From: Chitinophagaceae bacterium
GTDB lineage: Bacteria; Bacteroidota; Bacteroidia; Chitinophagales; Chitinophagaceae
Direction of reading: 5' to 3'
Length of the DNA: 64,000 nucleotides
Assembly: GCA_004173235.1 (NCBI GenBank)
Contig: SEAC01000016.1
Location: 1-64,000, forward strand
Under the pieces are notes generated by a model that saw only the letters and a list, made by a program, of their open reading frames with translations, was not told the DNA's origin and did not search any database. The first letter of the stretch is position 1. Every line of letters begins with the position of its first letter. Positions 2,120 through 64,000 of the stretch are shown here, piece after piece. Position numbers and translations under genes: made by a program.

Positions 2120-2282
2120 GGGAATGTGCTAATGCCTGCCCGACGAAGCAAGGCGACGGCGGGGGGTAATGCCTGTCGGACGAAGCGAAAGGAGATGCTT
2201 GCTGGTTCCCCTTCCCTTAGGGAAGGGGTTGGGGGATGGGTCTGGCGAATGGGGTAGGAAAGGCTTGGGGGATGGGTCGGAA
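2120..2282. repeat. Direct repeats with a 9-bp-stem palindrome
   Basis: This gap upstream of the VWA gene holds two copies of a TAATGCCTGnCnGACGAAGC unit (near 2130 and 2168). It also contains the perfect hairpin CCCCTTCCC-TTA-GGGAAGGGG at 2208-2228 and two copies of TTGGGGGATGGGTC (near 2229 and 2264). The hairpin followed by a G-rich tract resembles the termini of the DUF559 cassette at 62575 and 63548. No gene is visible. Confidence 0.7.
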
Positions 2283-61125: not shown

Positions 61126-61228
61126 GGAATGTGAGATGTTAGATGTTAAATGTGAGATGTGAGATGTGAGATGTGAGATGTCGGATGGAGGCCCCGTTGC
61201 CCATATCAGACATCCGATATCCGACATC
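61126..61228. repeat. GTGAGAT tandem words with an inverted GATGTCGGAT pair
   Basis: About six GTGAGAT/GTTAGAT words occupy 61130-61180. GATGTCGGAT (61177-61186) pairs perfectly with ATCCGACATC (61219-61228). The words are the complement of the ACATCTCACATC stretch at 39050-39075. Confidence 0.8.
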
Positions 61229-61271
61229 AGCGATTGTGTTAATGGCTTGTCAATCACTACTTCTAAGTATA

Positions 61272-61299
61272 GGCCCCGCCCGGGGTCTTTTGTTTTTTT
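61272..61299 (+). terminator. Rho-independent terminator after the two-component operon
   Basis: A GC stem GGCCCCG / CGGGGTC (one G-T pair) with a tight loop is followed by TTTTGTTTTTTT. It lies 150 bases after the response regulator stop and 31 bases before the next start, so it separates the two units or attenuates the second. Confidence 0.65.
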
Positions 61300-61330
61300 G
61301 ATGTATTCAAACACATCAAACATCCTGGTT

Positions 61331-62521
61331 ATGAAAAAGATCCTCCTCTCCCTCAGCCTGCTCCTCATTGTGAGCCTGTCTGCATTCGCCGGTCCTTCCG
61401 GAATCCAGTTCGTGCACAACAAGAAGTGGAAAGACATTTTGGCGTTGGCCAAAAGCCAGCGCAAAGCGATCTTCCTCGATGCGTATGCTTCCTGGTGCGG
61501 GCCCTGTAAGTATATGCAGGAGAACGTTTTCACCAAGCCCATGGTGGGACAGTTATACAACGACAAATTCATCAACGTCAAGATCGACATGGAAGAAGGT
61601 GAGGGCCCCGAGCTGGCGAAGCTGCTCAACATCGAGGCTTACCCGACGCTGCTGTTCATCAACGAAAAAGGAGAGGTGCTGCACAAGTCGGTAGGCGCGC
61701 TCAATCCTGTTGCGTTCGTAGAGCTGGCGCGCGTGGCACTTGATCCATCCAAACAATTTTACACGCAAATGCGGCGGGCCGAGAAAGGCAAGCTTACACC
61801 GAAGGCTTTTCATTCCTGGCTGGCCGAAGCGGAGAAGCTCGATAACGGTGCCATCGACAGCACGGTGTCGCGCTACCTCCGCAACGTTTCTTACCCGCTG
61901 CTCGATTCCGACATGGTGCACATCCTCGTAGACTATGCGCGCACCCCAACGCGTGAGCAGGTGGATTTCCTTTTCTCTCACCGCGACGATGTGGCGCGCA
62001 TTCTGCGGCTCAATTCCGCCGAGCTCGAACGCAGCCTTCTGCGCCGCCTGCGTGCTTATGCGCTCAACCTTTCTGCCGTGTCCGACTCGCTCGACTTTCA
62101 CATGTTTGAAGGCATCGTGCAACGCTATGCTCCGGCAAGCGCCTGGGTGGAAACAGAGAAGCTGCGAAGCAACTGGGCCTTCACTTCCGAGAATGACGAT
62201 GCCGGTGTAAGCGCTCTGCTCACGCTGCTCAACCGGCCCAACAGCGGGCTTTATGCCGAAGACCTTGCCGACATTTTTCTGGAGCATGCCAACCGTATCG
62301 CACCGCATCCTCGTGCCGCCGAAGTGGCCACTGCCACCAAGGCTTTTGTGCCGCGCTCCGACGAGACCAAACTCTATTACCGCGACCTCGCCTTGCTGGT
62401 GCTCTACCTGAAGCAGCGCGATGCGGCTGGCATCCGGAGTTATGCAAAGACACTGTACGACAACCCGCAGGTACCCGAAGAACTCCGCGAGCGGATCAAG
62501 GACCTGCGTGACTATGAATAA
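61331..62521 (+). CDS. Secreted thioredoxin-fold protein with helical C-terminal region
   Basis: A 396-residue exported protein. A signal peptide (KKILLSLSLLLIVSLSAFAG) precedes a thioredoxin domain with active site ASWCGPCKYM (about 57) and the cis-proline segment IEAYPTLLFI. The remaining 250 residues are helical, with no recognised domain. It probably acts as a periplasmic thiol-disulfide protein of the DUF255/thioredoxin_7 type. The start at 61331 is chosen for its signal peptide; an upstream in-frame ATG at 61301 lies within the terminator tail. A strong terminator follows. Confidence 0.85.
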   Translation: MKKILLSLSLLLIVSLSAFAGPSGIQFVHNKKWKDILALAKSQRKAIFLDAYASWCGPCKYMQENVFTKPMVGQLYNDKFINVKIDMEEGEGPELAKLLNIEAYPTLLFINEKGEVLHKSVGALNPVAFVELARVALDPSKQFYTQMRRAEKGKLTPKAFHSWLAEAEKLDNGAIDSTVSRYLRNVSYPLLDSDMVHILVDYARTPTREQVDFLFSHRDDVARILRLNSAELERSLLRRLRAYALNLSAVSDSLDFHMFEGIVQRYAPASAWVETEKLRSNWAFTSENDDAGVSALLTLLNRPNSGLYAEDLADIFLEHANRIAPHPRAAEVATATKAFVPRSDETKLYYRDLALLVLYLKQRDAAGIRSYAKTLYDNPQVPEELRERIKDLRDYE

Positions 62522-62545
62522 ACCAGGGTTTCTGTTTGATAGACG

Positions 62546-62571
62546 AGCCCCGCCTTTTGGCGGGGCTTTTT
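62546..62571 (+). terminator. Strong rho-independent terminator
   Basis: A perfect 9-bp stem AGCCCCGCC / GGCGGGGCT with loop TTTT is followed by a T tract. It lies 25 bases after the thioredoxin-fold gene and abuts the left end of the inverted-repeat cassette. Confidence 0.88.
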
Positions 62572-62597
62572 ACACCCCACCCCGTCCCTCCCCGAAG

Positions 62598-62764
62598 GGG
62601 AGGGTGGCTGGCGCGCGAGACGTTCTGAGTCGGGAGGGTGGCTGGCGCGCGAGACGTTCTGAGTCGGGAGGGTGGCTGGCGCGCGAGACCGTTCTGAGTC
62701 GGGAGGGTGGCTGGCGCGCGAGACGTTCTGAGTTGGGAGGGTTGCTGGCGCGCGTGAAAGTTCG
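62598..62764. repeat. Left tandem array, five copies of a 34-base unit
   Basis: Units begin GGGAGGGTGGCTGGCGCGCG at 62598, 62632, 62666, 62701 and 62735 (spacing 34, 34, 35, 34). The rest of the unit reads AGACGTTCTGAGTC with few changes; the last copy is degenerate. There are no unique spacers. Confidence 0.9.
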
Positions 62765-62789
62765 AACGCCACTGTTTAGAAGACGTGCA

Positions 62790-63179
62790 TCATTCGATCG
62801 CGGCTGCTATTGCAGCCACAACCGAATTGATCTCCTTCATCACCTGTTCGTTTGTGAAGCGCAAAATGCGGAATCCTTTACTGCGAAGCTCCTGGTCGCG
62901 TTCCGCGTCTGCAGCTTGTTGACTTGCCGAGCGGTGGTAGCCGCCATCGACTTCAATGACTAACTTCTGGGAAAGGGAAACAAAATCAACGATGTACTTA
63001 CCGATGATATGCTGTCGCCGAAAGCGGCATCCTTTGATCTGGTCTTTGCGGATTCGTTGCCATAGGCGTTTTTCCGCTTCTGTCATATCCCTGCGATTCT
63101 CTCGGGCGAACCCAGTTCGGTGCATAAATTCCCGAACGGAAGCTTTGTAGTAGCCGAATGTTTTTCGTGGCGTTTCCAT
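62790..63179 (-). CDS. DUF559-type endonuclease-like protein
   Basis: A 129-residue protein. The fold of the Vsr/restriction-endonuclease-like group is suggested by ARENRRDMTEAEKRLWQRIR, then KGCRFRRQHIIGKYIVDFVS and KLVIEVDGGYHRSASQQ. These give the D...E-x-D-type acidic residues typical of DUF559. FRILRFTNEQVMKEINSVV closes the domain, as is usual. Function in the family is unproven; nuclease activity is inferred from the fold. The start at 63179 is an ATG; a TTG four codons upstream is possible. It is the only gene inside the inverted-repeat cassette and may act on or depend on those repeats. Confidence 0.85.
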   Translation of the reverse strand: METPRKTFGYYKASVREFMHRTGFARENRRDMTEAEKRLWQRIRKDQIKGCRFRRQHIIGKYIVDFVSLSQKLVIEVDGGYHRSASQQAADAERDQELRSKGFRILRFTNEQVMKEINSVVAAIAAAIE

Positions 63180-63317
63180 TTTACAAATCAACCATTCGTC
63201 TTTTGCATTACAAGGTGAATAAAAACATCATTTTCTGATGTTTAAATCAACAACCGCAATCCCGCTTCGATCTCCGTTTGCTCGCGACCAGGCTCTTTCA
63301 TACTCCATCCTATTTGT

Positions 63318-63520
63318 GCGCCAGCACTATTTGGTGCGTCAGCCACCCTCCCGCGCCAGCCTATTTGGTGCGCCAGCCACCATCACGCGCCAGCACTATT
63401 TGGTGTGCCAGCTACGCTCACGCGCCAGCACTATTTGGTGCGCCAGCCACCCTCACGCGCCAGCACTATTTGGTGCGCCAGCCACCCTCATGCGCCAGCC
63501 TATTTAATGCGCCAGCCACC
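63318..63520. repeat. Right tandem array, about 5.5 copies of a 35-base unit
   Basis: Units start with GCGCCAGC at 63318, 63353, 63387, 63422, 63457 and 63492. Each reads GCGCCAGC, ACTATTTGGT, then GCGCCAGCCACCCTCAC, with small changes. The GCGCCAGCCACCC box is the reverse complement of the box in the left array. With 63180-63317, where I see only a small TGATGTT hairpin near 63230, this makes a gene-free stretch of about 420 bases. Confidence 0.9.
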
Positions 63521-63550
63521 CTCCCCTTCGGGGAGGGACGGGGTGGGGTC

Positions 63551-63580
63551 AAAAAAACCCCGGCACGATGGCCGGGGCTT
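63551..63580 (-). terminator. Rho-independent terminator of the secreted protein gene at the right edge
   Basis: On the minus strand a 7-bp stem GCCCCGG-like (CCCCGGC at 63558-63564 pairing with GCCGGGG at 63571-63577) is followed by seven T residues (63557-63551). It lies 23 bases past the stop codon of the leftward gene at 63603. Confidence 0.8.
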
Positions 63581-63602
63581 CAGATCCTTGCGGATAAATT
63601 GG

Positions 63603-64000
63603 TTATTGCAGTTTGTAAGTAACGCTTGTGTCGTTGCAGCTGCCGGAGTCGTTCCACTCGCGTGTGCCACCAACAGATACAGCGTAAACGGTAGTGTAGC
63701 CGTTACCAACAGTTACCGTGCCCTTACCCCAGCCATCAACGGTGCCACGGTAGGTGCCGTCCACATAAACTTTGATTGTGAGGCTCGTCCAGTTGTCGAA
63801 AGTGATCGAGCAGGCACCGCGGCTCTTGGTGCCTTTCGTTACTACGTCAGTTGTCGGAACATCTTTTTTGATGTTGGGGTTTGCACCACGGCTCTTGGCT
63901 ACTGCCTTGCCCTGAACGGTGCGTGTAGTTTGTGCGCTGGCGTCAACTGAGGAGGCCATCATGAGACCGCCGGCGATAAGCAGGCCAAAGATTACTTTTT
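63603..64000 (-). CDS. Secreted small protein, 5' end beyond the window
   Basis: The reading frame is open to the right edge. Its N-terminal part reads KVIFGLLIAGGLMMASSVDA followed by SAQ, a signal peptide whose first residues lie outside the window. ATG codons at 63962 and 63959 are therefore internal rather than the start. The mature part of about 110 residues has two SRGA motifs near residues 45 and 70 and a threonine/glycine-rich beta region (KVYVDGTYRGTVDGWGKGTV) with two or three cysteines. No family is recognised. It has its own terminator at 63551. Confidence 0.7.
   Translation of the reverse strand, partial: KVIFGLLIAGGLMMASSVDASAQTTRTVQGKAVAKSRGANPNIKKDVPTTDVVTKGTKSRGACSITFDNWTSLTIKVYVDGTYRGTVDGWGKGTVTVGNGYTTVYAVSVGGTREWNDSGSCNDTSVTYKLQ

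Follow-up and report, generated by a model that had tools for sequence, protein, structure and literature searches.

In REP/RAYT systems, dispersed palindromic repeats (repetitive extragenic palindromic sequences, REPs) are paired type by type with a gene for a dedicated small DNA enzyme (REP-associated tyrosine transposase, RAYT), which is flanked by inverted copies of the repeat. Palindromic repeats also occur in frame within protein genes in the case of the Rickettsia palindromic elements, which in this respect resemble the modules described below; to our knowledge they have no linked nuclease gene, unlike these modules. We analyzed a cassette at positions 62574-63549 of a 64,000-nucleotide stretch of DNA from Chitinophagaceae bacterium (the window; contig SEAC01000016.1, positions 1 to 64,000), in which a single endonuclease-like gene of the DUF559 family lies between inverted repeats. 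The most likely reading, and in our judgment a probable one, is that the cassette represents one copy of a mobile module that is widespread, has no transposase and is driven by a nuclease of the homing type. Such a module would work like REP/RAYT systems and homing endonucleases; it is not a RAYT, as the HUH enzyme is absent. As in REP/RAYT systems, the enzyme gene is located between inverted cognate repeats that are dispersed elsewhere (the cassette's own type is dispersed in the sister genome G001 and not in G000, the genome holding the window), whereas the enzyme is a Vsr-like DUF559 protein instead of an HUH Y1 transposase, and insertion in frame in host genes is a further difference.

The cassette ends can be compared with the BoxC/PIT/TM repeats. 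Descriptions of BoxC date from the 1990s; according to the main paper on repeats of this type, no mobility activities were found around its sites (PMC4666352). The same source (Holder et al. 2015) reported that the E. coli motif is always intergenic and forms a triplex in vitro, and linked triplex repeats with genomic instability (PMC4666352). Both sets of repeats consist of a pyrimidine stem, a short loop, a purine arm, a second loop and a mirrored G-rich third block, both include second loops TTA and CCG as well as solo copies and inverted pairs, and E. coli ycjD, a DUF559 gene, has such motifs directly downstream. In contrast to the published account of BoxC/PIT/TM, the motifs analyzed here enclose a nuclease gene and are also found in frame inside genes. 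E. coli YcjD, N. gonorrhoeae NGO0050 and Caulobacter VsrA belong to the same DUF559 family as the cassette gene, and the portions of the literature on them used here do not describe them as part of a mobile repeat system. For VsrA, the available text reports that it is needed for the DNA-damage response in cells without cytosine methyltransferase and proposes that it is a mismatch-repair endonuclease (PMC12907096). Another comparable protein is I-Bth0305I, an EDxHD enzyme, which is the nearest solved fold and sequence after NGO0050 (3hrl) and follows a similar selfish nuclease logic; EDxHD enzymes are ranked as a homing-endonuclease family in the source cited (PMC3943268). According to the same text I-Bth0305I is intron-linked and has extra DNA-binding regions, whereas no intron or intein was recognised in the DUF559 modules and their ends are hairpins. 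Neither a link between DUF559 and BoxC nor in-frame DUF559 modules were reported in the open-licence literature that we searched, which does not prove that such reports are absent.

G000 comprises 41 contigs and 3.76 Mb. The features of the cassette and its surroundings are as follows.

62574..62614, minus strand: left terminal inverted repeat, 41 nt exact (exact inverted-repeat search)
Hairpin 62586-62604, second loop 62583-62585, third block 62575-62582, read on the minus strand: left-end triplex motif
62598..62754: tandem array, period 34, 4.6 copies, 96% matches, whose unit opens with the G-rich arm of the hairpin
62790..63191, minus strand: DUF559 endonuclease-like gene (PF04480), 133 aa from TTG, likely 129 aa from the ATG at 63179
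63318..63523: tandem array, period 35, 5.9 copies, 90% matches, with the GGGTGGCTGGCGC box inverted
63509..63549, plus strand: right terminal inverted repeat, exact complement of the left, 41 nt
Right-end triplex motif on the plus strand, with its tail pointing outward (63530-63548)
62546..62571, plus strand: terminator-like hairpin of the upstream thioredoxin-domain gene (61166-62521), read from sequence
63551..63580, minus strand: terminator-like hairpin of the convergent gene 63603-63962, read from sequence
2208..2245, plus strand: solo triplex motif of another family, outside the cassette, CCCCTTCCC-tta-GGGAAGGGG-ttg-GGGGATGGG

The preliminary description, which was based on the sequence of the window, had presented the two termini as exact complements, each with a hairpin. 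This was correct, and at 41 nt (62574-62614 and 63509-63549) they are one base longer than given there and form the longest such pair of the window. Exact inverted repeats in window positions 1-62500 (arms within 2 kb) reached 19 nt at most, and in 200 dinucleotide shuffles of 62501-63600 none exceeded 14 nt. When mismatches were tolerated, the arms extended to 57 nt at 93% identity, the outer part being the neighbour genes' own terminator-like hairpins. Each terminus contains an 8-bp hairpin, CCCTCCCC-gaa-GGGGAGGG, and the ends fit the BoxC/PIT/TM motif (a hairpin plus a mirrored purine third block in which A may be T) as GGGGAGGG-ACG-GGGTGGGG, where GGGTGGGG, as read from the sequence, is the stem arm GGGGAGGG mirrored with T replacing A. 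The opposed tandem arrays of the earlier account were also found, with periods of 34 and 35 and with the common box GGGTGGCTGGCGC in opposite orientation, as was its single endonuclease-like gene with no transposase: DUF559 was the sole family above the Pfam cut-off in the cassette, and no transposase, including Y1 HUH (TnpA_REP), was present among its open reading frames (ORFs) and family matches. Seven other mechanical ORFs of at least 60 aa overlap the cassette, none of them above the Pfam cut-off; a single weak match among them (17.2 bits, cut-off 25) was taken as chance. On either side of the cassette are genes that converge on it: the thioredoxin-domain gene, whose end is at 62521, and a small minus-strand gene (63603-63962, no Pfam match). 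The cassette begins directly after the T-tract of the hairpin at 62546-62571 and stops directly before the A-tract of the hairpin at 63551-63580. An Rfam scan of the window gave no match.

The cassette gene matched the DUF559 profile (PF04480) with 131.7 bits (E 1.3e-38; curated cut-off 20.6), and the alignment indicates that translation probably starts at the fifth codon, the ATG at 63179. Its protein carries the nuclease residues E, D, E and H, which were retained in 67 of the 68 free-standing DUF559 domains of the loci analyzed below and in 104 of the 105 located in host proteins. An AlphaFold2 model of the protein (mean pLDDT 82.5) was most similar to 3hrl, the endonuclease-like NGO0050 of N. 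gonorrhoeae (E 3.5e-08), which itself fits the DUF559 profile (E 7.6e-36). The next match was the catalytic domain of the homing endonuclease I-Bth0305I (3r3p_B; Foldseek E 4.0e-05, probability 1.00), which also matched the profile (3r3p, E 3.4e-06), followed by weaker matches to PvuRts1I and Vsr. According to this model the cassette protein has an EDxHD homing-endonuclease-like catalytic fold, and by alignment the active site of the family is conserved.

DUF559 matches were found in 15 of 18 genomes of the genus (0-7 per genome, a few weak) and in 170 of 296 genomes of a phylum sample; phage matches were few (5 records). Each of the four DUF559 genes of G000 is enclosed by GC-rich repeats that are inverted and carry hairpins (alignment scores 61.5, 30, 35 and 30), and the end types of these elements are distinguishable, the stems of L002 and L003 being similar. 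The score is that of a local alignment between the 350 bases upstream and the reverse complement of the 350 bases downstream, with a threshold of at least 15. In 39 less selected regions, which were the top of a ranked list with one per genome (a 40th, L069, was dropped as a repeat of L061, and two of the 39 were too short to score), this threshold was reached at 22 of 37 DUF559 sites, compared with 3/122 for neighbour genes and 3/642 for random intervals of the same regions. For 80 loci, nearly all of them titled as Bacteroidota and being the best 80 of at least 519 found by motif patterns, the corresponding counts were 36/80, 9/256 and 8/1208. Four of these loci represent one site in related species (L171, L175, L180 and L186, all above threshold) and two, L149 and L150, share an identical core and are below it; the count without repeated loci was 33/76. 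Similarly, 12 of 20 DUF559 loci from Pseudomonadota, Deinococcota and Cyanobacteriota scored at least 15, compared with 14 of 453 random intervals (21 of 39 plasmid records were taken by choice and 20 used). In these other phyla DUF559 genes were also found within operons, for example sufB-DUF559-sufC and paaD-DUF559-paaZ, and at differing positions in the hpa cluster of three Deinococcus. In addition, 26 of 31 genus loci (L016, L024 and L037 were cut by contig ends, and L025 and L035 were weak matches) and 25 of 29 phylum loci (L045, L054, L058 and L065 were incomplete) were used.

In many DUF559 elements the end consists of a G-rich arm, then about 3 bases, then the mirror image of the arm with T allowed for A. 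By this pattern such ends are intrastrand-triplex motifs of the BoxC/PIT/TM kind. A triplex-motif detector counted 240 of them up to 350 bp from DUF559 (124,071 bp in total) versus 62 in the 938,642 bp beyond, a density about 29 times higher; L259, from a second Azospirillum strain, was part of this count and was left out of the domain tree and of the counts outside Bacteroidota. Outside Bacteroidota there were 41 motifs in 14,000 bp near DUF559 versus 52 in 128,000 bp. A motif was located within 350 bp at 109 of 178 DUF559 sites, on both sides at 71 and on one side at 38. The set of 170 sites has duplicate loci by identical cores (L036 = L117, L021 = L152, L014 = L114), and dropping repeats, in part per analysis, left the motif-density and matched-end results nearly unchanged: 238 motifs in 121 kb versus 62 in 914 kb without four repeated loci (ratio 28.9), and a motif within 350 bp at 106 of 172 sites. 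Among 43 elements with stems of at least 8 on each side, the stem arm was identical at both ends in 24 (23/42 without six repeated loci), whereas shuffling of partners gave a mean of 1.3 and a maximum of 6. Besides, repeat similarity tracked nuclease identity (Spearman 0.26, 77 elements, same-host-site pairs excluded), with none of 999 permutations as high. As a separate observation, tandem arrays with a period of at least 15 were about 5 times denser within 400 bp of DUF559 (18 in 135 kb) than further off (25 in 915 kb). Such arrays are present at window 62598-62754 and 63318-63523 and in L089, L104, L092 and L059, and many include the hairpin repeats.

The terminus types are also dispersed away from the genes. 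A degenerate pattern derived from the end types of G000, which leaves other end types uncounted, gave 23 matches in G000, a count that covers element ends as well, 45 in G001, 11 in G003 and 4 in G015; it matched once in each of 3 genomes and not at all in the other 11 of the 18; the reversed-pattern control gave 3 matches across these genomes. The 23 matches in G000 belong together to two terminus types other than that of the cassette. For the cassette type we found 16 matches in G001, 9 of them exact, and on contig C40 of that genome a DUF559 gene lies between two copies; the 9 exact matches are the telling ones, since the reversed control gave 17 matches in the 18 genomes (11 in G016 and 2 in G001). 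The preliminary description had taken the hairpin at 2208-2245 as a sign that the terminal element is dispersed. This hairpin is real, and it is of the terminus type that bounds the DUF559 gene on G000 contig C30, not that of the cassette. A gene-less copy, L294 (contig C22, approximately 611090-611400), matches the L003 element in its left end and leader (115/155 columns) and in its right end (61/76) and does not have the DUF559 gene; no triplex motif was found at its intergenic site in G001 or G003. In L287 the same composite ends (68/72 and 75/80) surround different DNA; in G001 it is a DUF559 gene, L027, that is present in the equivalent interval. At a site occupied by a DUF559 element in G001, the locus L379 (G003:C2:116060-117210) contains tandem copies of the palindromic repeat CCTACGGTGYGTAGG and another triplex motif. 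It was also observed by eye that L002, L003, L004 and the gene-less L294 share a leader between the left end and the gene, with a GGGAAAAA(C/T)AC-like stretch, and that a GTGCTTTG-like stretch precedes the start codons in the leader of L002, L003 and L004; this leader may be a promoter or regulatory element.

Translations showed DUF559 domains within longer proteins, 111 of 170 sites being in long open frames (six of which, L018, L042, L055, L070, L071 and L090, were not counted as hosts). After short sequences and those with stops were dropped (173 of 177 kept), 105 of 173 domains were in frame with, and mostly inside, host genes; L020, L030, L166, L029 and L038 among them have a short one-sided host piece only. 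The in-host share is not a census because the 80 loci are the best 80 of at least 519; it was 12/39 in the less selected regions and 11/26 for the genus loci. Hosts backed by Pfam were MetH (L119, L126, L122), MetRS (L108, L112), LeuRS (L148, L168), CinA (L181) and a SpoIIE-type protein (L124). By eye we also named IspG, tryptophan dioxygenase (TDO), M23 peptidase, ArgB, CoA transferase, adenine deaminase, urocanate hydratase, HsdR, HsdM and more, with L072 left without a host name. MetH and MetRS each carry modules in at least two distinct positions. The linkers are translated hairpins in several proteins, and in LeuRS of L013 the inverted copies agree at 40 of 40 positions. Across the 18 genus genomes the same IspG loop contains a plain linker, one repeat, two or three repeats, or a whole module (one repeat, CTCCCCTTCCCTTAGGGAAGGGGTCGGGGGATGGGTC, in G000 itself), and LeuRS and M23 peptidase likewise have empty, repeat-only and full forms in the genus. 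In the domain tree some host sites form monophyletic groups, and a clade of 19 (support 0.907) contains modules in five host genes at six sites, namely MetRS (two sites), TDO, adenine deaminase, CinA and acetyl-CoA synthetase.

The cassette site was compared with that of the related species G001, where the two neighbour genes are adjacent and the same terminators enclose approximately 290 bp of different DNA (L301 2840-3140, G001:C8); the hairpin after the thioredoxin-domain gene is the same. This 290-bp element ends in its own 17-nt inverted repeat, AGAGAAAGAACGCAGAT, and contains no triplex motif. The suggested search for an empty site yielded a relative without the cassette, with a different inverted-repeat element at the same place. 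The E. coli member of the DUF559 family, ycjD, is located between sapF and fabI, and the query region was at least 80% covered in 3362 of 5426 genomes. The text consulted reports ycjD as highly conserved in phylogroups A, B1 and C (PMC12817139). E. coli was considered and rejected as an empty-site case: no clean empty site is available there because an efflux operon follows sapF where ycjD is absent (two strains), consistent with the same source (PMC12817139).

We propose that the module consists of a small Vsr/EDxHD-type nuclease gene bounded by inverted hairpins, often intrastrand-triplex motifs. The nuclease would recognise its own hairpin type, or the fold-back form of the hairpin on single-stranded DNA, and would cut the hairpin and/or a target, after which break repair would copy the hairpin-ended segment to a new location as in homing or the spread of REP/RAYT. 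Binding and cutting of its own repeats by the nuclease, this way of copying and present activity are what we infer for the module. Internal deletion and gene loss would leave gene-less and solo copies. Since several reading frames of the repeats are often open, a module that lands in frame within a host-protein loop could survive there as an inserted nuclease domain. A stop-free bias of the repeats was considered and rejected: 139 distinct triplex motifs had 4.68 of 6 frames open versus 4.64 in same-letter shuffles, so that the frame tolerance results from composition and not from letter order.

The association of DUF559 with repeats, the matched ends, the type pairing, the dispersal, the gene-less derivative and the in-frame insertion are all read from sequence comparison, and by association they give good support to a nuclease-driven selfish or REP-type element, as had been suggested for the cassette. 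The suggestion holds in part: the copy at 2208-2245 is not of the cassette's terminus type, and recognition of the termini by the DUF559 protein is a prediction. Several observations weigh against our interpretation. Elsewhere in G000 the terminus type of the cassette is represented by one copy with 1 mismatch (contig C15) and no exact third copy. No triplex motif lies within 350 bp of 69 of the 178 DUF559 sites, motif orientation is mixed among the 43 elements (tails at both ends pointing outward in 24 and inward in 6, and mixed in 13), and 44 of the 80 loci have no strong inverted repeat, many of these being in MetH; the MetH modules without repeats may be old and inherited. In E. coli the triplex motifs of ycjD are located downstream only (two in KE47 and one in K-12) with none upstream, and ycjD has no strong flanking inverted repeat. 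Monophyly of several same-site modules, as seen in the tree, would fit inheritance as well as homing, and genome composition could be a shared cause of repeat and protein similarity. Finally, we found no clean same-species empty site and no target-site duplication in the M23, TDO and LeuRS pairs, in the cassette versus G001 or in L294 versus G001 and G003, all of which were too diverged (the nearest occupied/empty pairs have approximately 72-90% DNA identity), and the target duplications that the preliminary description had proposed to look for were not seen. It had also regarded a general separation of terminus and gene as fatal to its proposal. The outcome was mixed, with the terminus often found without the gene and a motif near DUF559 at the majority of sites (the 109 mentioned above), as is expected of any REP/transposase pair.

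These data were weighed against four other explanations. Triplex repeats might spread otherwise, by replication slippage or recombination, with DUF559 genes inserting in or beside them like some REP-targeting insertion sequences. Such passengers would explain why repeat matches outnumber DUF559 genes (23 versus 4 in G000), insertion of ISPpu9 into REPs is reported in the published text, and the cited sections on triplex repeats link them with genomic instability (PMC4666352); however, the stem type is the same at both ends, repeat similarity tracks nuclease relatedness, and the gene-less L294 retains the leader plus the ends, and we regard this explanation as unlikely. That DUF559 is a resident Vsr-like repair nuclease for triplex or hairpin structures or mismatches, with the flanking hairpins as regulators or substrate, also appears quite unlikely. 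The role of VsrA in the DNA-damage response as given in the text used (PMC12907096), the active site conserved in DUF559 domains and the reported conservation of ycjD in phylogroups A, B1 and C (PMC12817139) agree with such a host service, whereas the range of 0-7 matches per genome within one genus, the in-frame insertion at several sites of unrelated enzymes and the differing repeat types of copies within one genome do not.

Considering only the domains inside host proteins, they could be functional fusions selected by the host, with linkers that are merely low-complexity. Some hosts resemble restriction-modification proteins by eye (HsdR, HsdM), for which a nuclease fusion is possibly useful, and 40 MetH modules are located at one site. 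This is very doubtful in view of linkers that are translated hairpins, as in the LeuRS of L013, of hosts that include MetRS, LeuRS, MetH and CinA, and of the IspG loop that carries repeats without the domain. An ordinary transposon remnant, that is, an insertion sequence bounded by terminal inverted repeats with DUF559 as cargo and a transposase acting in trans, would have the perfect terminal inverted repeats and a gene-less form resembling a miniature inverted-repeat transposable element, yet the cassette contains no transposase and DUF559 is the gene between matched ends in all compared elements. Other cargo would be missed because the sites were chosen by their DUF559 gene; we consider such a remnant extremely improbable.

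The mobile-module reading would have several implications. With a candidate cognate nuclease for BoxC-type repeats, the question of where these repeats come from can be put to the test, even in E. coli K-12 through ycjD, and the data offer a role for the large DUF559 family of unknown function. That such a module can lie in frame within enzymes of translation and metabolism, where no intron or intein was recognised, bears on the origin of new protein domains and on the annotation of inserted 'DUF559' domains. A parallel case was found in GxxExxY (PF13366), whose genes are multi-copy in the genus (16 of 18 genomes). Strong flanking inverted repeats were present at 19 of 29 scored GxxExxY loci (L321-L350, one of the 30 being too short; L333 and L344, among the 19, are near copies) versus 0 of 288 random intervals from the same loci. 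These repeats are of several types, are non-triplex and differ from those of DUF559, and one type contains GAAAGAACGCAGAT, as does the G001 element at the cassette's site. GxxExxY is possibly a second nuclease-driven repeat system. It is conceivable, although somewhat short of an even chance in our view, that small PD-(D/E)XK nucleases beside repeats drive a whole class of transposase-free elements, comprising DUF559 (with triplex repeats, across phyla and into essential enzymes) and GxxExxY (with other repeats).

Two minor observations were also made. At the one site shared by L171, L175, L180 and L186 (3956-4321) in related Bacteroidales, the DUF559 genes differ at 0-5 of 363 nt, whereas the two adjoining genes show far more differences, 47-169 in 1215 positions and 12-81 in approximately 500. 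Homing was considered as the cause of this identity and rejected as a conclusion: a stretch of an ATPase gene further downstream (437-470 nt) has 1-8 differences, which leaves ordinary recombination as an alternative. The number of upstream repeat units is variable among these four loci. In the window itself, a 7-nt tandem repeat, ATGTGAG, is present in 7.6 copies at 61129-61181, at the start of the thioredoxin-domain gene region.

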